Positions 13,295-45,743 of a stretch of 47,097 nucleotides of DNA are shown here, piece after piece. The notes beneath the pieces were generated by a model, which worked only from the letters and a program-made list of their open reading frames with translations, was not told where the DNA came from and made no database searches. The stretch is taken from the NCBI GenBank assembly GCA_937951485.1, contig CALEDJ010000017.1:1-47097 (forward strand), in the 5' to 3' direction. How positions within the stretch are numbered: position 1 is the stretch's first letter; every line of letters begins with the position of its first letter. The DNA is from an uncultured bacterium (GTDB lineage: Bacteria > Hydrogenedentota > Hydrogenedentia > Hydrogenedentales > CAILVY01). Made by a program: the position numbers and the translations under genes.

Positions 13295-13421
13295 GCCATG
13301 TCCTTCCGAATCTCCCGGCAGCATACCGGCTCGCCGTTACCCATCTTCGCAATCCCAGACACAGAATAGCATAATTGTTTTGAACGAATAAGGGGCACTG
13401 TTGAAAAGATGCGCCCCGATA

Positions 13422-21592: not shown

Positions 21593-21598
21593 GGTTGG

Positions 21599-21886
21599 TC
21601 AACGGCTCCAGTAATCCACAAAGGTCAATCCGATGAACACGGCATAGGTAATCCCCACGGCGAGAAACATGTACAGAAACAGGGGGCGTTCATGCCGAAC
21701 ATGCATGAAATAGAACAGCACCAGCGACCCTTTCACCGCCGCGATCAAGAGTGCCGCCAGGACCGTTACATGCTTGAGGTCCAGCAATGCGATGCCGAAG
21801 GTCAGCGCTGTCAGCGCCATCAAAGCGCCCCATGTGGCCACATAGACGCCGTAGGGGTCGGCGTGGCCGGAAGTATTTGAATCCAT
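21599..21886 (-). CDS. coxD: Cytochrome c oxidase subunit IV, prokaryotic type
   Basis: This 95-residue protein has three hydrophobic helices and the family signature around KGSLVLFYFMHVRHE, matching the small subunit IV of caa3 and related oxidases. It has no cofactors and presumably stabilises subunits I and III in the membrane. The start is taken at the ATG at 21886, with AAAGGA eight bases upstream; an in-frame ATG at 21907 would overlap the coxC stop. Seven bases separate its stop codon from the coxB start. Confidence 0.85.
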   Translation of the reverse strand: MDSNTSGHADPYGVYVATWGALMALTALTFGIALLDLKHVTVLAALLIAAVKGSLVLFYFMHVRHERPLFLYMFLAVGITYAVFIGLTFVDYWSR

Positions 21887-21899
21887 CCTGGCTGTCCTT

Positions 21900-22547: not shown

Positions 22548-24163
22548 TGCGCGACATCCTCCGGGTATTCATACGGCCCGCGGCTGAGGTCCGGCGCGCC
22601 GGTGAAATTGAGGACCGGCGGCGGCGTGGGCGTGCGCCATTCCAAGGTCGCGCCGCCCCACGGATCCTCAGGGGCGCGCTCCCCGCGGAACAGGGAATGC
22701 ACGAGGTTGTAAAATGCCAGCAACAGTGCAGCGACCATCACCCAGGACCCGATGGTCGAGAGTTGGTGAAAGACCGTATATTCCGGCAGGTAATCCGCGT
22801 AACGGCGCGGCATGCCGAAGGCCCCCGCGATGAAGAGCGGCATATAAGTCATGTTGAACCCGATGAAAAAGAGCCAGACGGCCTGTTTCGCTGGTCGCAC
22901 GCGGTACATCCGACCGAACATCTTCGGCCACCAATAGTGCAGCGCGGCAATAAAGATCACCGCCGTGCCGCCGAACATGGTGTAATGGAAATGCGCCACC
23001 ACGAATGAGGTGTCGTGCAGGTGCACGTCGAGCGACAGTGACGCGACAATCATCCCCGTCAGTCCTCCGATGCTGAAAAGCACGATGAACATGAGCGCCC
23101 AGATCATCGGCGGGTCAAGCCGGATGGCCCCCTTGTACATCGTGGCAATCCAGTTGAACACCTTCACCGCGCTCGGCACCGCCACGAGGAAGGTCAGAAA
23201 TGAAAACACAATCCGCGCGATGTCTGACATGCCGGATGTAAACATGTGGTGCGCCCACACCAGGGAGCCAATCGCCGCAATGGCCACGGAGGAGTATGCG
23301 ATGAACTTGTAGCCGAAGATGTGTTTGCGCGAAAACGTGGGGATTATTTCCGACACCACGCCCATCGCCGGCAGGATCATGATGTACACCGCCGGATGCG
23401 AGTAAATCCAGAAGAGATGCTCGTAGAGGAGCGGATCGCCGCCGCGCGCGGGGTCGAAAATCGGGATGCCAAAGAAGCGTTCGAGCAACACCATGACCAG
23501 CGTGATGCCGACCACCGGCGTCGCGATAATCTGCACCCAGCCTGTCGCGTAGAGGCTCCAGACAAACAGTGGCATCTGAAACCAGCCCATCGCCTTGTCG
23601 CGCAGCCGGTGCACGGTCGTTACGAAGTTCAGTCCCGTAAGAATCGAAGACCAGCCGAGGATGAATGCCGCCAGAATGGGCCAGAACACGTTCTGTCCCG
23701 TCTTTACGCTGTATGGCACATAGAAGGTCCAGCCGGTGTCCGGTCCTCCGCCCGACAGAATGGAAACCACCGCAAGGGCGGCCCCCGCCATGTAGCAATA
23801 CCATGACAGGAGGTTCAGGCGGGGGAAGGCCACGTCGTGTGCGCCGATGAGAATGGGCAGGAAGAAATTGCCGAAGACCGCCGGAATCCCGGGGATGATA
23901 AACAGGAAGATCATGACCACGCCGTGCAGCGTGAGCAGGCGGTTGTAGATGTCGTGGCTGAGGAACTGCATGCCGGGAAACAGCAGTTCCAGTCGGAACG
24001 TCACCGCCAGCGACATGGCGAAGAAAAAGAAAAAGGACATGCCGCCCAAATAGAGCAGCGCAATGCGCTTGTGGTCCGTCGTCGTTACCCAGGAGAGAAT
24101 CCCCGGCTTGGCTTCCAGGTAATTGGGCAGCGGCGCGGACAGGGTGGTGCTGATACCGGCCAT
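22544..24163 (-). CDS. coxA: Cytochrome c oxidase subunit I, A2-type
   Basis: This 539-residue catalytic subunit reduces oxygen to water and pumps protons. Heme and copper ligands are visible: H80 for the low-spin heme, H256 with Y260 (the His-Tyr crosslink pair), H305 and H306 for CuB, and H391 and H393 in HFHY for the two hemes. In helix VI the sequence is YSHPAV (254-259), lacking the glutamate of A1 enzymes. This YSHP motif defines the A2 subfamily described for Rhodothermus and Thermus caa3 oxidases. The start codon overlaps the sco stop by one base (TAATG), with AGGAG seven bases upstream. About twelve transmembrane helices are apparent. Confidence 0.96.
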   Translation of the reverse strand: MAGISTTLSAPLPNYLEAKPGILSWVTTTDHKRIALLYLGGMSFFFFFAMSLAVTFRLELLFPGMQFLSHDIYNRLLTLHGVVMIFLFIIPGIPAVFGNFFLPILIGAHDVAFPRLNLLSWYCYMAGAALAVVSILSGGGPDTGWTFYVPYSVKTGQNVFWPILAAFILGWSSILTGLNFVTTVHRLRDKAMGWFQMPLFVWSLYATGWVQIIATPVVGITLVMVLLERFFGIPIFDPARGGDPLLYEHLFWIYSHPAVYIMILPAMGVVSEIIPTFSRKHIFGYKFIAYSSVAIAAIGSLVWAHHMFTSGMSDIARIVFSFLTFLVAVPSAVKVFNWIATMYKGAIRLDPPMIWALMFIVLFSIGGLTGMIVASLSLDVHLHDTSFVVAHFHYTMFGGTAVIFIAALHYWWPKMFGRMYRVRPAKQAVWLFFIGFNMTYMPLFIAGAFGMPRRYADYLPEYTVFHQLSTIGSWVMVAALLLAFYNLVHSLFRGERAPEDPWGGATLEWRTPTPPPVLNFTGAPDLSRGPYEYPEDVAQ

Positions 24164-24999
24164 TACAGGTCTCCTACGGCACTACCGCCAGGCGGAAGGG
24201 CGGATGCCCCGCCACCCGCGTCGGTCATGCCGGTGTGTTTTCGAACGAGGAGCCAGAATCCGAAGCCGATGACGAATAGCACGGTCAACCCGAGAATGAT
24301 GCGGTTGATCTGGAGTACATAGGAACGGCTTTCGGGGTTGTAGGTGTAACAGAGTTTTTGCAGCGCCTGGATAATTGCGCGGGGACGGCCCTCGCGGGCG
24401 TCGAGGACCGCCATCTTGAAATCGGCCGGATTGACGCTCAGGCCGTTCAGATAGCGCACGATCTTGCCCGTCGGCGAGAGAAACACGACCGATGCCGTGT
24501 GTACGTAATCCACGCCGTTGGCGTCCCGTGTGTAGTGAAACCCGACACTTTCCGTGAGCAGGCGGATATTCTCCGCATCTCCGGTTAGAAAACGCCAACC
24601 GTCTTCCGGAATGGTCTTGCTCTTCAGGGTGGCGATCATGTTGGTTTTTTTATTCTGTGCAAGTTCCGGGGTTTCCTCCGGTTCAAAACTTACGGTTATC
24701 ACGCGGTAGTCCACGCCGGGCGTCAGGTCGCTCTTGTCAATGACCGACGCCGCCTCCTGCAAGACCGGCGTGCAGATGCCCGGACACCGGTAATAGACCA
24801 ATGTCAGGAAAATCGGCCGGTCGAAAATATCTTTCAATGCTATGGGCTGTCCTGCCTCATCGGTGAAATGCAGCCGGTCCAGAGGAATCGTTTCGCCCAA
24901 GCGTTCCTCGACGCCGACCCGGTCGCTTTCCGCGCATGCGCCTGCGGCGCACAGCGCAATCAGCGCCGCCGGGAATATGGGTATTCGTGTCATTTTCAT
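24163..24999 (-). CDS. SCO1/SenC-type copper chaperone
   Basis: This 278-residue protein has an N-terminal signal peptide (to about residue 23), a thioredoxin-like domain with the copper site CPGIC (C72, C76) and H167 (YVHTAS), and a C-terminal membrane anchor near residues 233-252. SCO proteins deliver copper to, or reduce, the CuA centre of oxidase subunit II. Its place directly before coxA fits that role. The ATG at 24999 follows AAAGGAA; another ATG lies two codons on. The C-terminal anchor after the domain is the arrangement often seen in oxidase operons that also carry ACIII. Confidence 0.92.
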   Translation of the reverse strand: MKMTRIPIFPAALIALCAAGACAESDRVGVEERLGETIPLDRLHFTDEAGQPIALKDIFDRPIFLTLVYYRCPGICTPVLQEAASVIDKSDLTPGVDYRVITVSFEPEETPELAQNKKTNMIATLKSKTIPEDGWRFLTGDAENIRLLTESVGFHYTRDANGVDYVHTASVVFLSPTGKIVRYLNGLSVNPADFKMAVLDAREGRPRAIIQALQKLCYTYNPESRSYVLQINRIILGLTVLFVIGFGFWLLVRKHTGMTDAGGGASALPPGGSAVGDL

Positions 25000-25011
25000 T
25001 GCATCGTTCCT

Positions 25012-26220
25012 TTACAACCGGAATCGCATGGATTCCTCGAGCAAGGGGTCGCCCACTGCCAGGCAGGGACGCCGCGCCAGAAAACGCGACAGCGAAAGCA
25101 GCAACGCGCCCGCCAGCGCCAGCGGCGGCCCCAGTTCCTGCCAGCCGATCACCGGTCCCGCCGCATGCCGCTCCGGCATGATCAACCAGAAAAGATCGAG
25201 CCACTGTCCCGCGAGCACAATTACCGACACCACCACCAGGGTTCTTGCGTGCCTCTTTGCGCGGCGCGGCAAGAGCAGGAAGAAGGGAATCACGAAACGG
25301 GCCAGGGCCAGCGCCACGCTGACACCCAGCCACCCGCCTTGAAGCCGATCGTGTATGTAAAAGGTCTCCTCCGGCATGTTGGCGTACCAGATCAGCATGT
25401 ACTGGCTGAACGCGATATAGGCCCAGAAGGCGCTGAATCCGAAAAGCAGCGCGCCCAGGTTGTAGAGATGGTCCGTGGTGACGCAGCCTTCCGGCAGCCG
25501 TCCACTGTTGCGCAGGGCAATGACGGCCAGCGTCAGCGCCGCCAGACCGCTCAACGCCATTCCGGAGAACACATATACGCCGAAGATTGTGCTGAACCAG
25601 TGCGGATTCAGGCTCATCAGCCAGTCAATCGCGGCGAAGGACACCGTCACGGCAAACGCCATCATAAACGGCGCGCCCATGCGGCGCATGCGCAACACCG
25701 CGCCCACGGCGTCGTCGCCGGCGTCCTGCCGAAACGACTGCCGCAGGAAATGCCGCGTGAAACCCGCCCAAACCGCGAGATACAGCGCGGCGCGCGCCAG
25801 GAAGAATGGACTGTTCAGATACGGGCGCTTGCCCGCCAGAATGGGGTCCTCCGCCACATGCGCCGCATCCGCCCACGGGAAAAGGGAGAAGTGCCCGTGC
25901 AGCAGGAGCATCAACACAACGGGAATGAACAGGGCGGCAAGCATGCCCGTCGCCGGCGCGGCGAGCATTTCCATGACGCGGCGAATCACTACCGACCAGC
26001 GGGCGTGTGTCAGGTGGTGCAGTCCAAGAAAGAACAGCGACCCAAGCGTGACGCTCCACAGAAACGCATAGCCCCAGAGATAGGCCGAAGCGAAGCGTTC
26101 CCGGCTCTCCGCGCCCAGCAGCGCCGGCACGCTCAGATGCAAGCCCGCTATCAGCAGGATGAGGGCGATGCGGCGAAGGCGCATACTGGTCTGCGGCGAT
26201 ATCGAGTCAATCGGCGTCAT
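25012..26220 (-). CDS. actF: Alternative complex III subunit ActF
   Basis: This 402-residue membrane protein has about ten helices. It belongs to the ActF family (quinol:cytochrome c oxidoreductase quinone-binding subunit 2), distantly related to NrfD/PsrC and to ActC. Segments such as WSVTLGSLFFLGLHHLTHA, FAAIDWLMSLNPHWFSTIFG and FSQYMLIWYANMPEE are typical. It forms one of the two large membrane modules of the complex. The ATG overlaps the actE stop by four bases, and twelve bases separate its stop from the sco start. Confidence 0.9.
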   Translation of the reverse strand: MTPIDSISPQTSMRLRRIALILLIAGLHLSVPALLGAESRERFASAYLWGYAFLWSVTLGSLFFLGLHHLTHARWSVVIRRVMEMLAAPATGMLAALFIPVVLMLLLHGHFSLFPWADAAHVAEDPILAGKRPYLNSPFFLARAALYLAVWAGFTRHFLRQSFRQDAGDDAVGAVLRMRRMGAPFMMAFAVTVSFAAIDWLMSLNPHWFSTIFGVYVFSGMALSGLAALTLAVIALRNSGRLPEGCVTTDHLYNLGALLFGFSAFWAYIAFSQYMLIWYANMPEETFYIHDRLQGGWLGVSVALALARFVIPFFLLLPRRAKRHARTLVVVSVIVLAGQWLDLFWLIMPERHAAGPVIGWQELGPPLALAGALLLSLSRFLARRPCLAVGDPLLEESMRFRL

Positions 26221-26867
26221 CGTTGCAGGTCCTCCGGCGTGGGGTTGGCCGCGCGCTGGAGCACACGCAGGTAATGTGCCGCCATCCAGCGGTCCTCAGG
26301 GGGAATCAATTCACGATAGGACGGCATCTTGCCCATGCCCTTGGTTACGATGTGGAAAATCGTTCCATCGGCGTAGCCGCGCGCCTGGTCGGTGTGCAGG
26401 GAGGGAGGCGCGGGGAAGCGGTTCGGCCCGGTAACGGGACCGTCGCCGTAGCCTTCCTTGCCGTGGCATGCCGCGCAGAATATCTCATAAACCCGCTGCC
26501 CGCGCATCAGTGTTTCCCGTGTGATCGGCATCGGGTTGTGCAGCGCCGCACCCGCCGCCACGGCGTCCTCGATGGTATTTCCAAGATGATCCATTGCATA
26601 TGCCGCATACTCCCGCGGGATCGTCCCCGGCACAGGCGGACGCTCCACAATCCGCGCCTCGCCGAAAACCCGGCCATATGTGCCCTGCGCCTTGCCCTTG
26701 GGCTGCGCCGCCATCCCGTTGAAGAATTCGATCATCGGTATGGACAGCAGAAGCAACGGCATAAGAAACGCCGATGCCACCATCCCCAGCAGGGTCGCCT
26801 TGTACATAGTCGGCGACCAGCGTGGATAGCAGTTCTGGATAATGGCGATAACCTGCGGCGGAATCAT
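26217..26867 (-). CDS. actE: Alternative complex III mono-heme cytochrome c subunit ActE
   Basis: This 216-residue protein has an N-terminal membrane anchor (about 26-50) and an external cytochrome c domain with heme motif CAACH at 131-135 and M181 as the likely sixth ligand. In ACIII this subunit is thought to hand electrons on to the cytochrome c domain of the caa3 oxidase. Start and stop overlap both neighbours by four bases (ATGA), indicating coupled translation. Confidence 0.92.
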   Translation of the reverse strand: MIPPQVIAIIQNCYPRWSPTMYKATLLGMVASAFLMPLLLLSIPMIEFFNGMAAQPKGKAQGTYGRVFGEARIVERPPVPGTIPREYAAYAMDHLGNTIEDAVAAGAALHNPMPITRETLMRGQRVYEIFCAACHGKEGYGDGPVTGPNRFPAPPSLHTDQARGYADGTIFHIVTKGMGKMPSYRELIPPEDRWMAAHYLRVLQRAANPTPEDLQR

Positions 26868-27425
26868 AGGAACGCGTCATCCTCTTCTTCGTACTCGATG
26901 AGCGGGCGGATATCCCGGCAGCCGGTTTGCGCCAGCAGCGCCCGCGCCGCATCCTCCGAATAGTTGGGGTCCGACGCCTCCAGGACAATCGCGAAGCGAT
27001 CGCAGGTGACTTCCGGCATGATGCCGGAATCGTGCAGCGGCGAATGCCACCGTCCCAACCTGCCAAGCGCAAACACCAACCCCATCACCGTCAACCCCGC
27101 GAACAACACGAACAATTCAAAATAGATGGGCACAAAAGCCTGCCAACTGAACAACGGCTTGCCGCCGATGTGGATGGGGTAATGCCATGCGCTCAGCCAG
27201 CCCGTCAGCCCGATGGCCGTACCCAGCCCGGCGAATCCCGCCAGCAGGCCGATACCTCCCACTGGCGACTCGGGAATACCCATCGCGGTATCAAGACCAT
27301 GCACCGGATAAGGCGTATGACAGTCCCAGCGGGTGTATCCGGCGCGGCGCACCTCCACGGCCGCCCGCACCAGCGCCGAGGGATCGTCGTACAGCCCCGC
27401 GACGCCCACTTGTTTGTGCCGCAAC

Positions 27426-27433
<8 letters not shown>
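26864..27433 (-). CDS. actD: Alternative complex III subunit ActD (DUF3341)
   Basis: This 189-residue protein begins with a soluble ferredoxin-like part containing YDDPSALVRAA. It has two membrane helices near residues 58-80 and 95-125 and ends in a soluble acidic tail. This is the DUF3341/ActD plan, a structural subunit without cofactors that bridges the membrane modules. The chosen ATG at 27433 has GGAGG five bases upstream; the start at 27445 would contain that ribosome site. It overlaps the actC stop by eight bases. Confidence 0.9.
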
Positions 27434-28801
<1,368 letters not shown>

Positions 28802-28805
<4 letters not shown>

Positions 28806-31800
28806 GCGGACTGACCCTCGTTATTTGGATGGACGAAATGGACGGAATGGACGGAGTTGACAGGCGCTGCCACATTGATGGGGTCAGGTCTGACAGGGGC
28901 CTGCGCATAGACCATATCCACTTTGTCCTTGCTGTCCTTGGCGTGGGCGCTTTCCGCTGCGTCCCCCACTCCCGGATGCGGATTGCGTATCCGCGCCAGA
29001 TAATTCACATTAGGCTTCACATTCAGTTCTTCAAGCACCCGGAATCTCCGTCCCGACCGCTTCAGTTTCGCCACAAGACTCTCCGGGTCGTTGGCATCGC
29101 CAAAAACGATGGCCTGCGCGGGGCACGCTTCCTGGCAGGCGGTGCGCACCGCGCCGTCTTTCACATTCTCGCCCCGGTTGCGGGCGGCGAATTTCGCCGC
29201 ATTGATGCGTTGCACGCAAAAAGTGCATTTTTCCATCACGCCGACGTCGCGCACAGTGACCTGCGGATTGTGAGCCAGTTCCTGGACAGGATCGCGTAGC
29301 ATCTTGTCCTGGTAGGCGCGGAAATTGAAGCGGCGCACCTTGTAGGGGCAGTTGTTGGAACAGTACCGCGTGCCCACGCAGCGGTTGTACGCCATTTCGT
29401 TCAGTCCTTCCGGGCTGTGGGTGGTGGCGTTGACGGGACAGACATTCTCGCAGGGCGCATTGTCGCAATGCTGGCAGAGCATGGGCTGATGGTGGGCTGC
29501 GGGATTCTCCGGGTCGCCCGTCAGGTAGCGGTCCACGCGAATCCAGTGCATATCGCGCCCCCTGTCGCATTCCTCGCGCCCCACGACGGCGATGTTGTTC
29601 TCCGCCTGACAGGCAATCATGCAGGCGTTGCAGCCGGTACACGCATTGAGGTTAATGGCCATTTCCCATTTGTGGCCTTTGGAATAGTCAAACGGCGCGT
29701 ACAGGTCCGCTTCGCGCGGCAGGTGGCGCTTGTGCTCGACAAATGCCGGATCGGCCTGGAATTCCGCCAGCGTACCGTCAATGACGATGGGACGCCCATG
29801 AAGCGCGAATGCCTGTTGTGTGCGCACCAACCGACGTCGTCCGGAATCCTTGGACACCTCGACCCGCAAGAGCGTTCGCGGTGCATGGGGATTGTCACGT
29901 CCAAGCAGGGGCGCGACATTCACCCCGCCCGCCGCCAACACCACCTCGCCCCCCGCACTGCGTCCATGACCCAGTGTCAGCACCGCCACCTGGTCCATAG
30001 TGCCCGGCACGATTAACGCAGGGACTCTCAACTCGGTGCCATTCGCGGCGATGCGCAGCATGTCACCCTCGCGTACGCCCAGCGCCGCCGCCGTTTTCGG
30101 GCTGATCGCCGCCGCGTTGTCCCACACCATTTTGCTGATGGGGTCCGGCAGTTCCTGGAGCCAGGCGTTGTTGGCGAAGCGCCCGTCATGGACGGCGTAA
30201 TGCGGGAGGATAACCGCCTCAAACGACCCGGCAACCGTTTCCTGTTGTTCGAGCGCCTCAGCGGCGGTGGCATCGAAATCCGGCAGCGCCGTGTGCGTGT
30301 CGGTGCGCAGCACGCCGGTGCGCAGACATGTCTCCCAGGAAACATCGGCGAATGTCTGCGCAACCTGATGCTTGAGGTAATCGTGCCAGTCGCCGAAGTG
30401 GCGGATGGTATCGTCGGGGTCGGCGAGAATCTGGGTCCATCTCAGGAGCGATTCCGCTTCCTGGCGCGTATCGAAAAGCGGGGCAATCATTGGCTGGCAC
30501 CAGGACCGCAGCCCCGCGCGCGGCGCGGCATCGTTCCAGGATTCCAGCCCATGATTCGACGGCAGCGCCCAGGAGCACGCCGCCAGCGTTTCCGTGCGAT
30601 ATACGTCGTGCCCAACTGAGAGCGCGGCCTTTGACAACAGCGCCTCGAAACCGCCGCCCGGCCAGTCGTACACAGGATTGACCCCCAGCAGAATCAGCGC
30701 GTCCACGCCCTGCGACAGCACTGCCGCCACTTCCGACGGGGCACTGACCGGAAGGGTCGCGGGTTGCGGATTCCATTCGAGTGTGTTGCCCGGCGCATCC
30801 AGATCGTGATTCAGGAACGCAGCCGCAGCATGGACATTTTCCGGAAGATGTCCGCCCGCCACCACCAAGGCGCCGCCCCGATGCCGGCGCAGATCATCCA
30901 CAATCGCATCCGCCACCCGCTCATCGAGACCATGTTCTTCGGCGAGACGGCGCAACCGCATTGCATCGCCGCGCAGCGCGGCGCGCAGCGCCCGAAGAAA
31001 TGCCGCCATCGCCGAGGGACGCAACCGCAGACGGTGGTCCGCGTTGGAACCGGTCAGCGTCATGGCCGATTCCACCGCATAGAGGCGGCACATCGCGGTT
31101 GCCGCGGGGTCCGCATCGTTGACAGCACGGGCTTGTACAAACTGGCGGGTATGCTCCAATGATGGACCGTCCACGCCGAGGAAATCCGCGTCCACGCTGA
31201 CAATGATCTCGGCGGCGTCAAAACGCGGCAGCCATTCGCCTTCTACGCCGTAGATTTTGCGCCACGCGGCGCGGCGCGGCGCGTCGTGGGCGCTTTCGTG
31301 CACAAAATGCCGGGCGCGTGGAAAGCGCCGGAGAAATTCTTCGAGCATGGCGCGTTCGGAAGGCCCCAGCGTGGACCGCGTCATCACCACCACCGAAGCC
31401 GCGCTTTTCAGCACTTCGACAATCGCGGCGTCGGCTTTCGCCCAGGAAGCCGTTTCTTCACCCCGCATGGGAGACTGGAGTCGATCGGGATCGTAGAGCG
31501 ACAGAATCCATGCCTGGACCTGCGCATTGCTGACCCCGCCATTGATGGGATGGTCCGGATTGCCGTCAATCTTGATGGGCCTGCCGTCAACCGTCTTAAT
31601 GTTCAGTCCATACGGGAACGGCCCCTCGGTAAATGTGGACGCATAATGCAGAGCCTTCCCCGGCTGCTGGTACTCCGGGCCTTCGGCCCGGCTGACAATG
31701 ACGCGCCGGGGTTTGCGCTCGCAGCCCGTCGCGCCGATCGCCAGCGCCGCCGACGCCTTCGAGATGCGCCCCAACAACTCGCGACGGCTGATGCCGCCGT

Positions 31801-31918
31801 CCGGCGCGGCGGCGTCCTCCGGCGACGTCAGGTTCTCCACGTGGGTGGACAAGGCAGACGTTTGGAGCCGCCGCATATATTCCAGGCTGTGGTAGCGTCT
31901 CTTTTCCTGTTCGCTCAT
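28802..31918 (-). CDS. actB: Alternative complex III iron-sulfur/molybdopterin-fold subunit ActB
   Basis: This 1038-residue protein fuses a catalytically silent molybdopterin-oxidoreductase fold (about 70-680) to an iron-sulfur domain (about 745-960). A Tat motif, ISRRELLG, lies at about residues 43-50 after an unusually long N-terminal extension and is followed by a hydrophobic stretch ending ATGC. Cysteine groups CTGCNACMIAC, CQHCDNAPCENVCP, CVGTRYCSNNCP and CTFC...CQEACP can hold four clusters, as in Rhodothermus ActB (three 4Fe-4S, one 3Fe-4S). The C-terminal 70 residues are low in complexity and include three VH repeats encoded by a tandem 9-bp repeat. The gene lies twelve bases downstream of actA. 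Confidence 0.94.
28829..28855. repeat. Three tandem 9-bp repeats inside the actB 3' end
   Basis: ATGGACGAA, ATGGACGGA and ATGGACGGA follow each other on the plus strand, encoding on the minus strand the VH repeats near the ActB C terminus. The rest of this tail is also repeat-like, as in AKDSKDK. Confidence 0.75.
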
Positions 31919-37522: not shown

Positions 37523-38743
37523 TCAGCGCTTCATATTAAACCGCACCCACTCTTTGAACCGGCGATAGGTGCCGGAAGGGCCCTGCTCCAGGAGTGTTTT
37601 TCCGACACGGTGGACAATTCCCATCCATCGCTTGAGCGCGGGTTCCGTGTCGCGGCGCAGATATTCGGTCAGAACGATGCGCATTTCCTCCTTGTCCGCA
37701 AACAGATTCGATGGACATCGGACACAGTACGCAGGCGGTTTGCCGTCAAACATCCCTTCCCGAACACGACTCATATAGGCACCATTCCAAACCTGGCTGA
37801 ACGGCATGTCTTTGATGGACAGCGCCTGAGAATCATAGAAAGCGCAGCAGGGACCCAGTGCGCCGTCCGGCATGATGGCTGCGCTCAGCCAGGGTTCATA
37901 GCACATCGCCCCGGACAGTCCCAAGCGTTGTGCAGGGCGCACGTTGCGCTGCATGTTGGTGCTCTCTTCAATAAGTTCAATTCCCAGAAACCGCGAGTAG
38001 TTCGTTTCAATCCCAAGTTCTCCGGCCCTTTGAATCCCTTTGTGCACCATCTCCGGAAAGGCGGCCTTTTGCTCCGGGCTCAGCGCCAGCCGCGCCGTTT
38101 CATCGTCTTCGACTATCAGGCCCGACAAAAACACCACTACATCAGGGCTGATGGATGCCGCAAGTTCGACGAATTGGTCCAACTTGTCATAGACAAGGTT
38201 CGTAATTGTAGCGTTGAGATACAAACCGGGTGTCGTCTGTCCCCGCCTCTGCTTGTGTGACGCAAATCGTTGCATGTTGGCAATGGCTTTGTCGAAGCCG
38301 CCCCCCCGAATCTGATCGTTGATTGCCGCATTGGGGCCGTCTATGCTGAATATGATTCGGACAACGCTCCGCTCCATAATCGTTTCCGTCATCTCGGGGG
38401 AAAACAACGTGCCGTTGGTGTGAATCCAACTGGTCATGCCATACGCCGTCATCTTATCAATCATTCGAAGCATCAGTGAGCGACGTACAAGCGGCTCGCC
38501 GCCGCCCAGAAAAATCCAGTGACGCGTACCCATTTCCGCCGCTTCATCCACCAGCCGGAGCCAACGGGCGTCGGGCAGTTCGGAAGCATACGTACGGTCC
38601 CACTCGGCCCATTGCCGCCAGCAATGGCGACAATTCAGGTTGCATCGGTTTGTCAAAAATGCGCTGATGCGCTCAGGTCCCGGCGGCGTTGGACAGGCAC
38701 CGGACCAGAGGCGCATGCGGCGAAGCGCATCTACAGGTTCCAT
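37523..38743 (-). CDS. Radical SAM/SPASM protein (first of three paralogs)
   Basis: This 406-residue protein has the SAM-cluster motif CNLNCRHC (C34, C38, C41), GGGEP for SAM binding and HTNGT. It has C-terminal cysteines in the pattern C-EPW...PCC...CxxC that should hold auxiliary clusters (SPASM or twitch type). Such enzymes modify peptides, sugars or enzyme residues by radical chemistry in the cytoplasm. The ATG at 38743 is chosen because the resulting N terminus (MEPVDALRRMRLWSG) aligns with the paralogs (MQPVMAHRLVRWQNG); a TTG 19 codons upstream has no ribosome site. The C terminus ends in a basic tail (GTYRRFKEWVRFNMKR). It is divergent from the tandem paralogs. No precursor peptide was found nearby. 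Confidence 0.85.
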   Translation of the reverse strand: MEPVDALRRMRLWSGACPTPPGPERISAFLTNRCNLNCRHCWRQWAEWDRTYASELPDARWLRLVDEAAEMGTRHWIFLGGGEPLVRRSLMLRMIDKMTAYGMTSWIHTNGTLFSPEMTETIMERSVVRIIFSIDGPNAAINDQIRGGGFDKAIANMQRFASHKQRRGQTTPGLYLNATITNLVYDKLDQFVELAASISPDVVVFLSGLIVEDDETARLALSPEQKAAFPEMVHKGIQRAGELGIETNYSRFLGIELIEESTNMQRNVRPAQRLGLSGAMCYEPWLSAAIMPDGALGPCCAFYDSQALSIKDMPFSQVWNGAYMSRVREGMFDGKPPAYCVRCPSNLFADKEEMRIVLTEYLRRDTEPALKRWMGIVHRVGKTLLEQGPSGTYRRFKEWVRFNMKR

Positions 38744-38863
38744 TAGCGGCAGTGTCCTCAGGAAGGGATGTTTGAAATCAGTGGATCGGATTGCTTGCAA
38801 AGATTAGATCGTTGCTTGAAACAGTCTGCCATACCAACTGCGTGACAAGCAATCCCTTTCAAC

Positions 38864-38891
38864 ACGAAAAGCGATTTTTACTGCTTTTCGT
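38864..38891. promoter_or_regulatory. 9-bp stem palindrome between the divergent radical SAM genes
   Basis: ACGAAAAGC (38864-38872) pairs perfectly with GCTTTTCGT (38883-38891) around GATTTTTACT. It lies in the 236-base divergent region upstream of a TATAAT box, in a position suited to an operator. Confidence 0.4.
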
Positions 38892-38903
38892 TCATTTCCG
38901 CGC

Positions 38904-38932
38904 TTTTTTTCCATCGGCGCGGCCGCTATAAT
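38904..38932 (+). promoter_or_regulatory. Putative promoter of the tandem radical SAM genes
   Basis: A perfect TATAAT lies at 38927-38932. The expected -35 position (38904-38909) is a T-run, not TTGACA. The predicted transcript would start about 40 bases before the ATG at 38980. Confidence 0.45.
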
Positions 38933-38979
38933 TCCTGGGTGTTGGCAGAGATTCAAGTGCAATCACGGGAGACTGATTC

Positions 38980-40209
38980 ATGCAGCCGGTAATGGCCCAT
39001 CGCCTTGTTCGCTGGCAAAATGGGGCATCTCCGCCACCTTGGGAATTGATGATTTGCCCAACGCATCGGTGCAATCTGAAATGCGGTATTTGCGCGCGCA
39101 GTTGGGAGGAACACTCCCATCCCCTGCTGTTCGATGAAGTGCCTGATGAACGCTGGCTGCCACTGGTGGACGAAGCGGCGGCCTTGGGGGTGCGATATTT
39201 CAGTATTGGCGGGGGCGGAGAACCGACCCTGCGCCGTGAACTGGTCATAAAGATATGCGCCAGGGCCAAAAGCCTCGGCATGGAAGGACACCTGCAGACC
39301 AATGGCACCTTGTTGCGCGAAGAAGATATAAATACGCTCGTCGCCTTGGGGTGGGACCACGTGACCATCAGTCTTGACGGGCCGACGCCGTCCATCAACG
39401 ACGCCATCCGATACAAGGGAGCCTTCAGTGAATCCGTAAAACGCATAGAGATGCTGCGCGCGGCGAAAAAGCGGCAGAAGGCTTCGCGACCTGACATTCA
39501 GGTTCACATGGTCCTCACGGCGCTGAATTGCGAGCATCTGTCGGCAATGGTGGCGTTTTGTCTTGAACTTGGGGTTGAGGCGCTTTTCGTCTCGCCCCTG
39601 ATCGAATATAGCCCCGACATGAAAGCGTTTGTTTTGAGTCCTCAACAACGCGGCGAACTGCCCGGTTATGTTGAAAAGGCAATTGCACGGGCCGATGCGG
39701 CCGGACTCCCACACAATCTCGAAAACCTCTTGCCAACGCCCAATGCAGACACAGACACCTTCACCGGCGATACGTCCCTTTCCTCCCAGTGGCCCGCCGG
39801 CCATATCGCCGGGGTGCGGTGTCTGGAACCCTGGCGGGGCTTGGTTGTCTCTTCAGGCGGCCATGCGCTTCCATGTTGTCACTTCTGGGAGGAAAAGGCG
39901 GACAGCATTCGGAGCAACAGCCTGTCCGATGTCTGGTTGGGACCATACATGAGTGAATTCCGGCAGAAAATGCGCAATGGGCCCCTGCCGGAGCCTTGCC
40001 GGACATGCGGTTTTCCGGACAGCCTGACGCACCGCAAACTGAGGGAACGCGTGCGAGAGGCGGCCCTGTCGAGCGGCAATGTACCGGGGCCATGGCGCGG
40101 TTTCGTCGCAAAGGCCTGGAATAGTGTCCGCACGCATGGACTTGCCGGCAGTGTTCAGCGCTATCGGCAGTGGCGCGCCATCCGCCGCGCCCTGCGCAAC
40201 GAACCGTAG
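38980..40209 (+). CDS. Radical SAM/SPASM protein (second paralog)
   Basis: This 409-residue protein has the radical SAM motif CNLKCGIC (C31, C35, C38), GGGGEP, QTNGT and a SISLDGP-like barrel strand (TISLDGPTP). C-terminal cluster cysteines lie in CLEPW, PCCHFWEE and PCRTCGFPD. It ends with a conserved basic segment, KAWNSVRTHGLAGS followed by WRAIRRAL, shared with the next protein. The ATG at 38980 has GGGAG eight bases upstream. It is the first gene of a plus-strand run of radical SAM and glycosyltransferase genes, so a modified glycan or lipid-linked product is a reasonable idea, but the substrate is unknown. Confidence 0.86.
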   Translation: MQPVMAHRLVRWQNGASPPPWELMICPTHRCNLKCGICARSWEEHSHPLLFDEVPDERWLPLVDEAAALGVRYFSIGGGGEPTLRRELVIKICARAKSLGMEGHLQTNGTLLREEDINTLVALGWDHVTISLDGPTPSINDAIRYKGAFSESVKRIEMLRAAKKRQKASRPDIQVHMVLTALNCEHLSAMVAFCLELGVEALFVSPLIEYSPDMKAFVLSPQQRGELPGYVEKAIARADAAGLPHNLENLLPTPNADTDTFTGDTSLSSQWPAGHIAGVRCLEPWRGLVVSSGGHALPCCHFWEEKADSIRSNSLSDVWLGPYMSEFRQKMRNGPLPEPCRTCGFPDSLTHRKLRERVREAALSSGNVPGPWRGFVAKAWNSVRTHGLAGSVQRYRQWRAIRRALRNEP

Positions 40210-40299
40210 AAAAATGATAAGGACTTCACGTCAGACACGCAGCATGTCGCACCCATGCTCGGACCGCTCCACGTGATCTTGCTTTGAGGAGATAGAATT

Positions 40300-41520
40300 G
40301 TGTTGCCTGTCATCACTTCGCGCCTGTTGCGTTGGCAGGACGGCCAAACGGCCGGTCCCTGGCGCTTGAAGGTTTTCCCAACCTACCGGTGCAACCTGGA
40401 TTGCGGCATTTGCGTCCGCAACTGGCATCGGACGCATCCGATCCTTCTTGACGAACTGCCGGATGAGCGCTGGCTGCGTCTTGTGGATGAAGCGGCGGCA
40501 ATGGGGGTGCGTGCCTTGATCATCGGGGGAGGCGGGGAGCCGATGCTGCGCAGCCGACTGGTGCGCAAGATGTGCGTCAAGGCCAAAGAATACGGCATTT
40601 CAGGAAGCCTCCAAACCAACGGAACGAACCTGAGCGGGGAAACCATCGAGACATTTATCACAACAGGTTGGGACTATGTAACAATCAGCATTGACGCGCC
40701 CGGCGCAGACATCAATGACGCCATCCGCAACAAGGGGGTTTTCGCACGAACGGACGAGGCGTTGCGCGCCCTGCATGAAATGAAGCAGCGGCACGGGAGC
40801 GTACTTCCCAATGTGGCCATCCACATGACGATTACATCCCTGAACTACAACTGTATTGAGGACATGGTGGATTTTTGTACCGCCCGCGGCGTGAATATGC
40901 TGTCCGCCAGCCCATTGCTGGAAGTCGGCATGGAAGATTCGGGGTATGTCCTGAATGCGGAACAGCGCGCCGCCTTGCCGGGCCAGTTGAAAAAGGCCAT
41001 TGAAAAGGCCGACGCCCGCGGCCTGCCACACACTTTGAACAGCCTGCTGATGATCGAGAATGCACACTGCGCGAATCCAACGGACACCCAAGGCTCCAGT
41101 TTTCCGAAAGGTCATCTTGCCGGCGCGTTATGCCTGGAGCCTTGGACTGCATTGACCATTACTTCCAGCGGTCATGCCGGGCCATGTTGTTTTTTCTGGG
41201 AAGAACACGCCGACAGCATCCGGGATAAGACCCTGCAGGAAGTCTGGACGGGTCCTTATCTCTCGCAATTCAGACAGCACATGCGCGACGGCCGGCCCCA
41301 TCCCATTTGCCTGAACTGCTACTACCCGGACACACAGGAACACAGGGAATTGATGGATTGCCTGCGGCAGACTGCGGCGGTGCGCCCGAGAATTTTCCCG
41401 GATTGGCGCGCCCTGCCCGGAAAAGCCTGGAATAGCGTCCGCCGTTATGGATTGCACGGCAGTTGGCGGCGCTTTCGCGAGTGGCGCGCCATCCGGCGCG
41501 CCTTGAAGGACGATGCCTGA
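40300..41520 (+). CDS. Radical SAM/SPASM protein (third paralog, tandem duplicate of the second)
   Basis: This 406-residue protein keeps every motif of its neighbour in the same places: CNLDCGIC (C31, C35, C38), GGGGEP, QTNGT, CLEPW, PCCFFWEEHADSIR, CLNCYYPD and the tail KAWNSVRRYGLHGS plus WRAIRRAL. The two clearly arose by duplication but have diverged well beyond recent copying. The start is the GTG at 40300 with GAGGAG eight bases upstream. Ninety bases separate it from the previous gene. The shared tail is basic and aromatic, suitable for contact with membrane, nucleic acid or a partner enzyme. Confidence 0.86.
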   Translation: MLPVITSRLLRWQDGQTAGPWRLKVFPTYRCNLDCGICVRNWHRTHPILLDELPDERWLRLVDEAAAMGVRALIIGGGGEPMLRSRLVRKMCVKAKEYGISGSLQTNGTNLSGETIETFITTGWDYVTISIDAPGADINDAIRNKGVFARTDEALRALHEMKQRHGSVLPNVAIHMTITSLNYNCIEDMVDFCTARGVNMLSASPLLEVGMEDSGYVLNAEQRAALPGQLKKAIEKADARGLPHTLNSLLMIENAHCANPTDTQGSSFPKGHLAGALCLEPWTALTITSSGHAGPCCFFWEEHADSIRDKTLQEVWTGPYLSQFRQHMRDGRPHPICLNCYYPDTQEHRELMDCLRQTAAVRPRIFPDWRALPGKAWNSVRRYGLHGSWRRFREWRAIRRALKDDA

Positions 41521-41562
41521 CCGGCGGTCTCCCCGCGGATGCGGGAGAAGCCGCATGTCCCC

Positions 41563-41568
41563 TATAAT
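41563..41568 (+). promoter_or_regulatory. TATAAT box before the fusion glycosyltransferase gene
   Basis: CTATAATGCC here echoes CTATAATTCC before the second radical SAM gene. No -35 was recognised. A short GC hairpin (CCGC/GCGG, about 41534-41545) lies just upstream. It would allow separate transcription of the glycosyltransferase genes. Confidence 0.35.
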
Positions 41569-41607
41569 GCCCGATAACCGCAGCACAAGGCGTATGCGCA
41601 GGGACGA

Positions 41608-43980
41608 ATGAAGGAAGGACGTACCATCAGTTTTTCCGCCGACCATGAGGCCCCGTTGCAGGGAGTAACCGCGCAGGGCGCAACATCGCAAGATGCCGTG
41701 ACGCCGGCATCTTTTGGGATGCGCCCACGGCGGGGGCTTGTCCTTTCGCATAACCGCCGCCGGCATTATTTCCGCGAGAAGGACATGCATCGCTGGCTGG
41801 CTTATGCTGTCCGTGTTCTGGATTGCCTGAAAGTGGATGTGTTGGCGTGGGGACGTGTTCCAAAAAGTCTGGTTTCCACGATCTGGTATGCGCGCGAATT
41901 TGCCGTGCCGGTTTCGCTGCGCACCGACGCCGGCGCGCCGCCGGATGACCTGGAATACCTGGCCGCGGAAGGTCTGGCCGATGTGTTCCTCTGTCCTTGC
42001 TCCCTTGCGGACGATTCCTGGCGTTCATGGCTCGAGGCATGTCGCCGACTGGGGTTGCCGATTCGTTTGCAACTGGTGATGCCACGCTTGGATACACGGA
42101 CCGCCGAACAGTATGCCGAGATTTGGGCAGCATCAGGGGTCCGATCGATCAATCTGGTGCTTGAGGACCCATTTCAGCCATCCCGGCCATGCAGGGACGC
42201 CGGGGAAGGGCGGGCATTGGCCGATTCGTGCAGCGCACTGGCCGAGGCATTGATGAAGCATACTGTTGAGGCGAACCTCGTTGGATTTCCGCCGGAATTG
42301 CTGAATCCGGCCGCGCGGCCCTGCGCCATGAGTCCCGATGCTTTCTATTGCGACTACCAACAGTACGATTTGACGGCTCATCGTTTTGCGATTCGGCTGT
42401 ACGACCGGCGACCTGAGATTGTCCGGGCCGCATTGCTGATTGCAATGAAACGGCATATGGTTGCACCGGATGTCACCGATCGATGGCTTACGGAGGCGCT
42501 TTTTGTGCGGGCCAGACCGTTGTACCGTGCGGCGCTGTATTGCACGAAACGCCGGCGCGCCCGGCGCGGCACGCGGTTATCGCGCGCAACACATGACCCG
42601 CAGGGCGCATTTCTTGAAAAACCCCGCATGACTCCCGGTTTCTCGGACGAAGACCGCCGGCGCGCCGCACGCCTCCTGGGCGGGTATGCGCCGCCTGTGA
42701 TTGACACTGGCCCCGGCGAACCCATCCTGCGACCGCGTTACGTTGACCCGCTGGACGAAGATCGCATGCGGCAAAGCGCGCTTTGGCTTGATCTGGCGCG
42801 TGAGGCCCGCGAATGGCAGCAGCGCAAACCGCCGGACCGGGTTTGCGACATGAACGAGTGGGGTTCCGAACAGGCCTTCATGGTGCCTGAGTATGGCGCT
42901 ACTGCCTGGTTGACCTTCTTCGCCGGGGAACGTCTGTCCACCACGATTGACCATCTCCGTCCCCCGTTCATGGTTTCCGTGACCGTAGGCGGCGGCATGG
43001 TGGAGGCGGTTGGATTCCATCTCAGTCCGTCGTTCGCGCTGATGTGTCCTTTAATAGAGGCGCGGCACACCGTAACCCTCTACGTGCGCGGCGACGGGCG
43101 CTATGTCTTGCTTCGAGATGATGTTCCCGTGGAGCCGGTCCGGCTCCCCGGAAAATATCCCGCGCCGCTTCGCGCGCCGTCTTTCGTGAAACTGCGCGTG
43201 GCCGCCTGGGACATCGAAGAGCGGATTTCGTTCTCGCCCTTGCGCCTTTGGAAAGAAGCGCCTTCGGAACGTGAGTCCGGCCCGTCACCAAAATATTCGG
43301 TGGTGGTGTTCTGCACGCGCTTCGCGCGCCGGCTTGCCGCAGCGCTGCAATGCATTGCGCACCAGCAGGATTTCGACACCGCGCAATTGGAGGTGGTTGT
43401 GGGGTATGTGCCGGGGCTTGACGCCACGGAGGACGTGTTGGAATCGCTGCGCCTGGCGCATCCAGACCTCCGTATCATCCACGCGCCGTTTCCCCGGCAG
43501 AATATCCGGTCCAAGGGGTATGTATTGAACCAGTGCATGGGCATGGCGCGGGGCGCATGGATACTGCTGCTGGACGCGGACACGCTTCTGCCGCCCCATA
43601 TGTTCACTGTGCTGGACCGGGTGGAAGCCGGACAATCGTTCATTTTCCCCGAAGGCCGCGCCATGCTGGACCCGCAGACCACGGCGAGGGTCCTGTTGGG
43701 CGAAATCAAGCCCTGGCTGTCATGGAGGGCGTTGCTTCAGTCCGCACGGGAAGTGCGCCGGGACGAAGCGCTGGGCGCGCCCATCGGCTACTGCCAATGC
43801 TTTCGTCGCCAATGCCTTGAGAAAGTACGGTACCCGGAATACGAACATTTTCAGGGCGCAGACTACGAGTTTGCCACGGCCCTGCAAAAGCATTTCGGCA
43901 AAGAATATCGGCTCGACTTCCCTGTACTGCATCTGGACCATGAAGGCAGCCAATGGTTCGGAACGGAAAGGCATTTTTGA
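41608..43980 (+). CDS. Fusion of a cysteine-less radical-SAM-like domain and a family 2 glycosyltransferase
   Basis: This 790-residue protein has three parts. Residues about 40-300 read like a radical SAM barrel (VSLRTDAGAP, GLADVFLCP, LRLQLVMPRLD-like strands). Where CxxxCxxC should stand there is LSHNRRRHYF, so no SAM cluster can form. Residues about 412-560 form a beta-rich domain of unknown family. From about 560 the protein is a GT-A glycosyltransferase of family 2 type, with YSVVVFCTRFARR, RSKGYVLNQCMG and the metal-binding DAD at 656-658 (LLLDADTLLPP), ending near a GADYEF acceptor-side motif. It should transfer a sugar from a nucleotide donor in the cytoplasm. The radical-SAM reading of the N-terminal domain is inferred from strand pattern only. 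The ATG at 41608 has a modest ribosome site; an internal ATG at 41719 is possible. Confidence 0.72.
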   Translation: MKEGRTISFSADHEAPLQGVTAQGATSQDAVTPASFGMRPRRGLVLSHNRRRHYFREKDMHRWLAYAVRVLDCLKVDVLAWGRVPKSLVSTIWYAREFAVPVSLRTDAGAPPDDLEYLAAEGLADVFLCPCSLADDSWRSWLEACRRLGLPIRLQLVMPRLDTRTAEQYAEIWAASGVRSINLVLEDPFQPSRPCRDAGEGRALADSCSALAEALMKHTVEANLVGFPPELLNPAARPCAMSPDAFYCDYQQYDLTAHRFAIRLYDRRPEIVRAALLIAMKRHMVAPDVTDRWLTEALFVRARPLYRAALYCTKRRRARRGTRLSRATHDPQGAFLEKPRMTPGFSDEDRRRAARLLGGYAPPVIDTGPGEPILRPRYVDPLDEDRMRQSALWLDLAREAREWQQRKPPDRVCDMNEWGSEQAFMVPEYGATAWLTFFAGERLSTTIDHLRPPFMVSVTVGGGMVEAVGFHLSPSFALMCPLIEARHTVTLYVRGDGRYVLLRDDVPVEPVRLPGKYPAPLRAPSFVKLRVAAWDIEERISFSPLRLWKEAPSERESGPSPKYSVVVFCTRFARRLAAALQCIAHQQDFDTAQLEVVVGYVPGLDATEDVLESLRLAHPDLRIIHAPFPRQNIRSKGYVLNQCMGMARGAWILLLDADTLLPPHMFTVLDRVEAGQSFIFPEGRAMLDPQTTARVLLGEIKPWLSWRALLQSAREVRRDEALGAPIGYCQCFRRQCLEKVRYPEYEHFQGADYEFATALQKHFGKEYRLDFPVLHLDHEGSQWFGTERHF

Positions 43981-44019
43981 CCGCTGTATCTCCAAGCAAG
44001 CAAGGATTGATTCGTCATT

Positions 44020-45252
44020 ATGCGCCTGGCTTTTGTTGACCTGGTCTTCTCGTGGCCGCCTCTTGGCGGCGCGCCCCTGGACTTGTACTACACCATTTCG
44101 GGGCTGCAGGAACTGGGCCATGAGGTCCATTTGTTCTATGGCGCGGAAGTCGAAAACTGGCGACTGGAACCCGTCCGCGAAGACCGGCTTCCATTTCCGG
44201 CCACGCGCCTGCCCTTTACCGCCGCCGAAACAACACCGGAAATCATGAGCGGGCGCTTTCGCGCGGCGGTGGATGCATGGAAACCGGATGTGGTGTTTCA
44301 ATGCTTCGGCTTTTTTATGAAGCCCTATGTTTCACTCGCCTTGTCCCATTATCCCCAGGTGGCCCGCTATTACGCCTATGAGCCGTTCTGTCCGCGCGAT
44401 TACCGGCTCTTCTGGAAAGACAGGACATGCCCCAAGAATTATCTCTCCACCCCGAACGTATGTCGCCGATGCACCGCAAACGCTCTGAGAAGGAATTTTC
44501 TCATGGGGTTGGTCACCGGCTATGCGCTCGAATACGAACGGACCCGGGCCTGGTCGCCCGAATACCACGCCGTCATGCTCGCATCACTGCGATCCTACAA
44601 GGCGATCATCGTCTACAATCACTTCACGAAGCGATTGCTGGAGGGGATCACGGATCGCGTGCACGTCATCGGCGGCGGGGTCCACTTCGAGGACTTTGAT
44701 TATGCGCCGTTACCCGAAAAAGGTCGGAGCGAACGCACCGTCATTTTCATGTCGGGCCGGGCCGATGATCCCACCAAAGGCCTGAAAACCCTCCTGGATG
44801 CCGGAAAACTGTTGTGGCGGGAGCGGCAGGATTTCGAGATTTGGGCCACCCTCCCCGACGACCCCTACCATTACCCCTGGTTCAAGGCGCTCGGCTGGCA
44901 TGACTTCAAACAAATCATGAAGTTCTATCAGACCTCGGATATCTGCGTTACGCCCTCCACGTGGGAAGAACCGTTCGGATTGGTGGCCGTGGAGGCCATG
45001 GCGACGGGGCGCCCGTGTGTCGTGTCGGATGTGGGCGGATTGCAGGAAATCGTCATTCCGGGAGAAACCGGCTACCTCTTCAAGCGACGCAACGCAAAGG
45101 ATTTGGCGAAATACCTGCGCATCCTGTTGGATGACCCCGCCCTGCGTCGCCGCATGGGCGACGCAGGCCGCAAGCGCGTCGAGGAGGTTTACGACTGGAA
45201 GCAGGTCATCCGGCATCATTACCCGCCCCTGCTCGAAAAGGTGCTCCAATGA
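44020..45252 (+). CDS. Glycosyltransferase family 4 protein with cysteine cluster
   Basis: This 410-residue GT-B enzyme has the acceptor half from residue 1 (LGGAPLDLYY glycine loop). The donor half starts near 245, with the EPFGLVAVEAM motif (E317 and E325 as the EX7E pair) and GGLQEIV. Four cysteines at 124, 137, 148 and 151 (the last pair in CRRC) could bind zinc; they lie in a loop insert of the acceptor domain and are not part of the usual GT4 core. It likely adds a sugar to a lipid or protein acceptor at the cytoplasmic face. The stop overlaps the next start by four bases (ATGA). Confidence 0.87.
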   Translation: MRLAFVDLVFSWPPLGGAPLDLYYTISGLQELGHEVHLFYGAEVENWRLEPVREDRLPFPATRLPFTAAETTPEIMSGRFRAAVDAWKPDVVFQCFGFFMKPYVSLALSHYPQVARYYAYEPFCPRDYRLFWKDRTCPKNYLSTPNVCRRCTANALRRNFLMGLVTGYALEYERTRAWSPEYHAVMLASLRSYKAIIVYNHFTKRLLEGITDRVHVIGGGVHFEDFDYAPLPEKGRSERTVIFMSGRADDPTKGLKTLLDAGKLLWRERQDFEIWATLPDDPYHYPWFKALGWHDFKQIMKFYQTSDICVTPSTWEEPFGLVAVEAMATGRPCVVSDVGGLQEIVIPGETGYLFKRRNAKDLAKYLRILLDDPALRRRMGDAGRKRVEEVYDWKQVIRHHYPPLLEKVLQ

Positions 45253-45743
45253 GCGACACAGAACGCATCGGCATATTGTTCAACGAAACCCGGGACGCCG
45301 CGTTGCTGCTCAAGGCCGCGCGCCGTCGCCACCCCGACGCCCGTCTCGTGGCGATACTTTCGCCGCGCGCAGCCGTTCGGTTTCCGGCGCGCGATCTCGT
45401 GGACGAAATCGTGGAGGTGGAATTGTCGCCACTGCGGTTGTTAATCAGAGGCGCTTTCTTTCAAATGGTCGAGGTTCTGCGCAAACAGCGATTCGATCTG
45501 CTTGTATTGCGTTTCCCCACCTTGAAACTAAGACTTCTGGCCGCACTGGTTGCGCCGATGCGATGCGAAATCTGGCTCGCCGGCGGCGTCATCGTTCCGA
45601 CGCCGACCACACCCGGCGCCGCGGTGCGCGGGTATTTCCAGCGGCGATTTACGGGCGTGAAAATGATGGCCCGAATATGGTGCAATGTCTGGTGCTCGCG
45701 CATCCCGCGGAGGCAGGGCCGCGCCGGCGGCGATGCGTCCTGA
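45249..45743 (+). CDS. Small uncharacterised protein, translationally coupled to the GT4 gene
   Basis: This 164-residue protein has a Rossmann-like start (IGILFNETRDAALLLKAA) and a central segment FDLLVLRFPTLKLRLLAALV. It resembles the N-terminal half of a GT-B glycosyltransferase without the donor-binding half. The end (RIWCNVWCSRIPRRQG) is basic. It may be an accessory or membrane-associating partner of the upstream glycosyltransferase; the ATGA overlap supports joint synthesis. The family is not recognised. Confidence 0.6.
   Translation: MSDTERIGILFNETRDAALLLKAARRRHPDARLVAILSPRAAVRFPARDLVDEIVEVELSPLRLLIRGAFFQMVEVLRKQRFDLLVLRFPTLKLRLLAALVAPMRCEIWLAGGVIVPTPTTPGAAVRGYFQRRFTGVKMMARIWCNVWCSRIPRRQGRAGGDAS

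Follow-up and report, generated by a model that had tools for sequence, protein, structure and literature searches.

A cassette of six genes toward the end of a 47,097-nucleotide stretch of DNA (contig CALEDJ010000017.1; hereafter, the window) from an uncultured bacterium of the phylum Hydrogenedentota groups three radical S-adenosylmethionine (SAM) proteins, S1 to S3, with a glycosyltransferase fusion (GT2F), a GT4-family glycosyltransferase and a small conserved protein (F2). We consider it likely that this cassette is a branch of glycan assembly. Our best overall explanation, on which we are evenly divided, is that it represents a duplicated, probably mobile branch of a glycan pathway in which Twitch-type radical-SAM enzymes modify a sugar of the glycan; whether their substrate is a saccharide appears to us an evenly balanced question. 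The gene context supports the glycan link well, and the chemistry is what we infer.

All six open reading frames (ORFs) were confirmed. S1 (37523 to 38800, minus strand) diverges from S2 (38980 to 40209, plus strand; 409 amino acids) across 179 bp (38801 to 38979) that may form a shared control region. From S2 onward, S3 (40300 to 41520; 406 amino acids), GT2F (41608 to 43980; 790 amino acids), the GT4 gene (44020 to 45252; 410 amino acids) and F2 (45249 to 45743; 164 amino acids) follow on the plus strand, separated in turn by 90, 87 and 39 bp, the last two genes overlapping by 4 bp; this common direction and close spacing suggest that S2-S3-GT2F-GT4-F2 is an operon. S1 spans 425 amino acids from a TTG codon, but its start is probably the ATG at 38743 (406 amino acids), since its homologues open with MEP.

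Pfam searches identified Radical_SAM (E values of 8e-20 to 2e-22) and SPASM (1e-6 to 2e-10) domains in S1, S2 and S3, GT2 in the fusion gene and GT4 in the gene that follows it. F2 had no Pfam match and weakly resembles only the N-terminal half of a GT-B transferase: its match to heptosyltransferase II is weak (E = 0.003), and its relatives give weak Glyco_transf_4 matches. F2 is conserved, with 18 copies across 18 loci, and thus represents a real gene. An earlier sequence-only reading of this DNA had placed three related radical-SAM genes, one divergent and two in tandem, beside a GT2 fusion, a GT4 gene and a small GT-B-like gene, and the ORFs and Pfam matches agree with that description. S2 is 51% identical to S3 and 33% identical to S1, the remaining proteins of the same genome being far more distant. 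The nearest named relative, with 73% identity to S2, is a contig of 4.5 kb from Candidatus Hydrogenedentota bacterium SpSt-1162.

S1 to S3 are Twitch-type radical-SAM enzymes

Each of the three proteins has a Radical_SAM domain above cut-off and the SAM-cluster motif CxxxCxxC (38621 to 38644 in S1, 39070 to 39093 in S2 and 40390 to 40413 in S3), so that the SAM clusters are intact, as the sequence-only reading had it. Its auxiliary cysteines were likewise recovered in all three, in the pattern C-x17-C-C-x39-C-x2-C (37715 to 37903 in S1, 39820 to 40008 in S2 and 41131 to 41319 in S3), and the alignment confirmed its common N-terminal motif as R...W...GPW. The assignment to the SPASM class did not hold. 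A SPASM domain, which carries two auxiliary clusters, is defined by the seven-cysteine motif CX9-15GX4C-CX2CX5CX3C-C (PMC6231123). When 33 proteins were aligned, C281, C299, C340 and C343 (S2 numbering) were the sole cysteines outside the SAM motif that never varied, and C300 was nearly invariant. The Pfam match to PF13186 (SPASM) spans only these four cluster cysteines, and the C-terminal half of S1 holds just five cysteines, too few for a second auxiliary cluster. Because four auxiliary-cluster cysteines are present rather than the seven needed, we rejected identity as full SPASM enzymes and classify S1 to S3, from their sequences, as Twitch-domain enzymes with a single predicted auxiliary cluster held by four cysteine ligands. 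An anaerobic sulfatase-maturating enzyme, which needs a full SPASM domain with two auxiliary clusters, was rejected on the same count. As to orthology with a characterized enzyme, none of the radical-SAM proteins reached any NCBIfam curated cut-off; the best match, to the tungsten-cofactor maturase TIGR04317, scored 91 to 109 bits against a cut-off of 380 and was also rejected.

The AlphaFold model of S2 (mean pLDDT of 87.9) comprises one N-terminal helix, the barrel, the Twitch part and, at the C terminus, a long basic helix with a net charge of +7 to +8 over 40 residues. In a fold search of the PDB, the isolated auxiliary region of S2 matched BtrN and no other entry, with all four cluster cysteines aligned. 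The nearest whole-protein folds were SuiB, BlsE, SkfB and DesII, tied at Z scores of 24 to 25, and the fold alone therefore cannot tell a peptide enzyme (SuiB, SkfB) from a sugar or nucleoside enzyme (BlsE, DesII).

The closeness of the overall fold to SuiB and SkfB, and the many named SPASM/Twitch families that are peptide maturases, would fit enzymes that mature a ribosomally synthesized and post-translationally modified peptide (RiPP), which the transferases then glycosylate. We regard this as quite improbable. A scan of the gaps of 14 loci, which held 348 small ORFs, yielded no peptide conserved between genera other than shadows or tails of known genes; the cross-genome matches, which we rejected, came from near-identical genomes, antisense shadows of F2, gene tails or a 20-amino-acid ORF of one genus. 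The gaps within the operon measure just 39 to 90 bp, the S2 model has no peptide-recognition (RRE) domain at its N terminus, no PqqD-like neighbor was seen, and the surroundings consist of an exporter and transferases. S1 to S3 thus lack the adjacent precursor peptide and the RRE or PqqD-like part that mark RiPP maturases. The sequence-only reading, too, had found no precursor; it had proposed a glycan, a lipid-linked sugar or a peptide as the target, and the link to glycan machinery, which includes the Wzm/Wzt exporter described below, was supported.

GT2F joins a glycosyltransferase to a degenerate radical-SAM domain

GT2F has three parts. Its N-terminal part (41713 to 42756) resembles rSAM7, the radical-SAM protein encoded beside GT2F in the core locus described below (hhalign probabilities of 98.9% and 99.1%; E values of 3e-17 and 1e-18). 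In this alignment, a 19-residue deletion in GT2F falls exactly on the CxxxCxxC loop, and the motif was found in 0 of 27 GT2F proteins. The auxiliary-type CxxC...CD motif of rSAM7 is retained in most GT2F proteins of the core locus and lost in the aligned members of the window clade and in their sister, from genome G010 (G, C, L and f numbers are our designations). Since the domain is homologous to rSAM7 with the SAM-cluster loop deleted and the motif absent, GT2F is, as judged from sequence, a transferase with a degenerate, dead radical-SAM domain descended from the rSAM7 kind. Homology of this domain to S1 to S3 instead of rSAM7 was weak (7.9% probability) and was rejected.

The middle part (residues ∼405 to 552; 42820 to 43263) is a predicted beta domain, as judged from the secondary structure of the model and from Foldseek alignments with GlfT2, which extend over ∼430 columns at a low TM-score. 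The C-terminal GT-A catalytic domain (43279 to 43977) carries an invariant DxD motif (D656, D658) and HxDH; a fold search with the whole protein returned matches to the glycosyltransferase domain only. The GT2 fusion of the sequence-only reading therefore stands, with its fused portion now refined to a degenerate radical-SAM barrel followed by a beta domain. None of the libraries searched describes such a pseudo-radical-SAM glycosyltransferase architecture.

The core locus pairs rSAM7 and GT2F with a Wzm/Wzt-like exporter

The GT2F family is present in 63 of 68 Hydrogenedentota genomes, including all 38 of good quality, and in 1 of the ∼318 genomes sampled outside the phylum. Typically, the core locus reads Wzm permease, Wzt ATPase, rSAM7, GT2F, GT4, GT4 and F2. 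The permease is an ABC2_membrane protein whose single NCBIfam match, a galactan Wzm, lies below cut-off, and the best NCBIfam matches of the ATPase, teichoic acid export and Wzt models, are also below cut-off; the ATPase extends ∼450 residues past its ABC domain. The genome of the window has its own core locus on contig C38 (L048), with two further GT4 genes and F2 on C43, so that ABC-2 permease, Wzt-like ATPase and glycosyltransferases occur in this genome as in the phylum. The single occurrence outside the phylum, in G100 (L127:225-6930, with a GC content of 38% there), reads GT2-Wzm-Wzt-rSAM7-GT2F, in the order of the core locus. This gene order is evidence of a joint action of rSAM7, GT2F and the exporter, and the known role of Wzm/Wzt exporters suggests, by analogy, that the product of the core locus is a surface glycan.

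The GT2F of G100, from an unrelated, low-GC genome, has a shorter and more degenerate N-terminal domain. At the other end of the window, an 890-amino-acid protein without a Pfam match (2974 to 5646, plus strand), encoded downstream of a ResIII helicase-like protein, has a relative upstream of Wzt in G038 (L084:187-2523).

The cassette recurs, and Twitch genes often adjoin glycan genes

The order S2-S3-GT2F-GT4-F2 was found in G000, G038, G053 (with three Twitch genes), G057 (split over two contigs) and G027, and G056 has a similar Twitch-Twitch-GT2F-GT4-F2 arrangement. In G045, GT2F-GT4-F2 share a contig, and genes of the S1, S2 and S3 types lie on other contigs; G051 has S1, S2 and S3, its contig ending within S3. 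In the GT2F tree, the window copy groups with those of G027, G045, G038 and G053 (support of 100/100), with G010 as sister. This clade occurs only in genomes that also have S2- and S3-type genes, and G010 has related ones. The cassette and core loci are linked, since cassette genes directly adjoin the core Wzt gene in G027 and G045.

The co-occurrence foreseen in the sequence-only reading was borne out for S2 and S3, which recur in the same order with GT2F and GT4 in other genomes and lie with the transferases in nearly every genome where contigs allow the comparison. S1 stands apart from this set. S1-type and other single Twitch genes occur throughout the phylum, and in many genomes S1-type genes lie alone near housekeeping genes; the scattering without transferases that the same reading had named as evidence against itself was thus seen in part. 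Because its relatives also occur alone, S1 is tied less firmly to the glycan machinery than S2 and S3.

At E = 1e-70, members of the Twitch family were found in 28 of the 68 phylum genomes and not in any of the ∼318 outside. In 13 of the 25 genomes with a clear member, from at least six lineages, a Twitch gene lies beside an exporter, GT2F or GT4 gene. In G015, G025 and G008, for example, it stands between Wzt and GT2F, and in G001 a distance of 128 bp separates it from Wzm. These are associations of gene order, not of reaction, in ORFs called by a simple codon model, and the genomes are mostly fragmented metagenome assemblies whose contig ends hide neighbors. From flank and genome sizes, we estimate that chance would place such a neighbor within 10-kb flanks for about 1% of genes; since the observed adjacency lies far above this, the link between Twitch and glycan genes is real, although not obligatory.

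This excess also bears on the possibility that the Twitch enzymes act in trans on a general target such as a cofactor, a lipid carrier or, for instance in the role of a maturase, a protein, their position among glycan genes being partly incidental. We think this rather unlikely. Lone copies next to genes for a class I tRNA synthetase, an Na/H exchanger and an aldo/keto reductase are in its favor, as is TIGR04317 being the best curated-family match; that match, however, falls far short of its cut-off, and finding GT2F, Wzm/Wzt or GT4 next to a Twitch gene in 13 genomes would by far exceed what is expected by chance.

Several observations weigh against a role of the cassette in modifying an exported glycan. 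It has no exporter genes of its own, and no nucleotide-sugar genes lie beside it. In 12 of the 25 Twitch-bearing genomes, no adjacency to glycan genes was observed, some contigs ending too early to tell, and several lone copies adjoin housekeeping genes. The full-length fold, as noted, does not separate peptide from sugar or nucleoside enzymes. Twitch genes and rSAM7 are not distributed in a complementary manner: Twitch genes occur in 8 of the 20 genomes without rSAM7 and in 17 of the 48 with it, and a phylum-wide replacement of rSAM7 by Twitch genes was therefore rejected.

Some Twitch genes have other conspicuous neighbors. At two loci (L089:1614-3719, minus strand; L088:1100-3169, plus strand), a Twitch protein of the family is fused to a methyltransferase domain and adjoins another radical-SAM gene. 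A second SPASM-like protein is encoded next to the Twitch gene of G015 (L066:6136-7206), and a B12-binding radical-SAM protein next to that of G002 (L091:9930-11582). MATE-family transporter genes lie near S1-type genes in three families (L103:9211-10569, L104:1304, L056:11643-12725 and L095:14331), a possible link to export.

Mobility and origin of the cassette

Third-position GC ranges from 0.64 to 0.73 in the cassette genes and from 0.77 to 0.79 in the flanking sdh, M42 and HD genes; some far-upstream genes of the window are also low. The cassette genes are closest to those of family f10, not to those of the window's own family, and mobile-element genes accompany related copies (an IS200-like gene in G010 and an integrase in G045). 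Together, these features suggest horizontal gain. For a housekeeping comparison based on sdhA, the f10 genomes searched yielded no close sdhA. Our best explanation takes the cassette to be a duplicated branch of the surface-glycan pathway that is probably mobile.

The lowered third-position GC relative to the nearest flanking genes and the mobile-element genes, together with in-frame stops in copies from G045, could also be read as signs that S1 to S3 are nonfunctional or decaying copies on a mobile element. This is highly improbable, given that 30 of 31 family members, all but a truncated one, retain intact SAM-cluster and auxiliary cysteines, and that the S1 to S3 frames of the window are open and free of stops.

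A proposed pathway

In the core pathway, the Wzm-like permease and Wzt-like ATPase would export a glycan made by the GT2F and GT4 enzymes and modified by rSAM7. The dead rSAM7 copy within GT2F now probably binds or positions the acceptor and may recognize the same sugar as the Twitch enzymes. In the branch encoded by the window, S2 and S3, with S1 nearby, would stand in for rSAM7, immediately ahead of GT2F. Acting presumably at the membrane, they would generate a 5'-deoxyadenosyl radical from SAM and abstract hydrogen from a hydroxyl-bearing sugar carbon. The sugar would then be oxidized, an electron passing to the single auxiliary cluster as in BtrN, or epimerized, the carbon taking a hydrogen back. 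This editing would precede export, putatively by the core ABC pair, and the two paralogs might serve two different sugars or work as a pair. In its full form, this proposal describes a radical-SAM branch of surface-glycan synthesis in which a pair of Twitch enzymes alters sugars of a lipid-linked polysaccharide, by oxidation or on-chain epimerization, while GT2F uses its dead domain for glycan recognition; we advance it tentatively, as possible rather than probable.

In some O-antigen systems, terminal methylation is a stop-and-export signal. By analogy, the Twitch enzymes might place a terminal mark on the finished chain, to be read by the C-terminal part of the Wzt-like ATPase. The long extension of this ATPase past its ABC domain and the methyltransferase fusions in G041 and G051 would accord with such a mark, but the fusion in G051 has ABC genes of a different transporter type nearby. 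We hold this idea to be improbable.

If the proposed editing of an exported glycan is correct, radical chemistry would reach as far as cell-surface glycans, through radical-SAM enzymes in conserved association with a polysaccharide exporter. Nearly universal in Hydrogenedentota, GT2F marks the envelope of this uncultured phylum and may be a key to it.

Other genes of the window

A 715-amino-acid protein (11177 to 13324, minus strand) fuses phosphate acetyltransferase-like and acetate kinase-like domains, an unusual joining of consecutive enzymes. The region from 20510 to 31918 (minus strand) encodes cytochrome c oxidase subunits I and II and a 1,038-amino-acid iron-sulfur/molybdopterin-type protein, possibly of an alternative complex III. 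These point to aerobic respiration in a genome that also has several radical-SAM enzymes.

Comparison with known systems

Sugar-acting radical-SAM enzymes are known mainly from antibiotic pathways. A search of the open-access literature, by title and abstract, for radical SAM in connection with the export of polysaccharides or O antigen, or with Hydrogenedentota glycans, returned no description of such a system.

The closest parallel to the auxiliary domain is BtrN, a dehydrogenase of butirosin biosynthesis (PDB 4M7T), which has one auxiliary cluster, as predicted for S1 to S3, with four cysteine ligands in the same order and at near-equal spacing. BtrN is a Twitch enzyme that oxidizes 2-deoxy-scyllo-inosamine, a sugar-like ring, and its four-cysteine cluster is the proposed electron acceptor (PMC9012708); for S1 to S3, gene context suggests a sugar substrate. 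Unlike BtrN, S1 to S3 are ∼150 residues longer, end in a basic helix and are encoded in a polysaccharide-type rather than an aminoglycoside cluster, and the Z score of the whole model to BtrN (17.8) is lower than that to SuiB or BlsE (∼25). The peptide-modifying SPASM/Twitch enzymes SkfB, SuiB and CteB share with S1 to S3 the radical-SAM barrel, the SPASM/Twitch extension and high fold similarity, but neither an RRE domain nor a precursor peptide was found for S1 to S3.

The GT-A domain of GT2F matches chondroitin polymerase and TarS (Z of ∼20 to 22), and GlfT2 alignments cover the beta domain as well; to our knowledge, none of these three transferases has an N-terminal domain derived from a radical-SAM enzyme. 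The permease and ATPase ahead of rSAM7-GT2F-GT4 resemble the Wzm/Wzt systems that export O antigen or teichoic acid, the core ATPase scoring 201 bits against the curated teichoic acid exporter cut-off of 538. Unlike those systems, the core locus has radical-SAM genes as fixed neighbors, and one of its transferases includes a dead radical-SAM domain.

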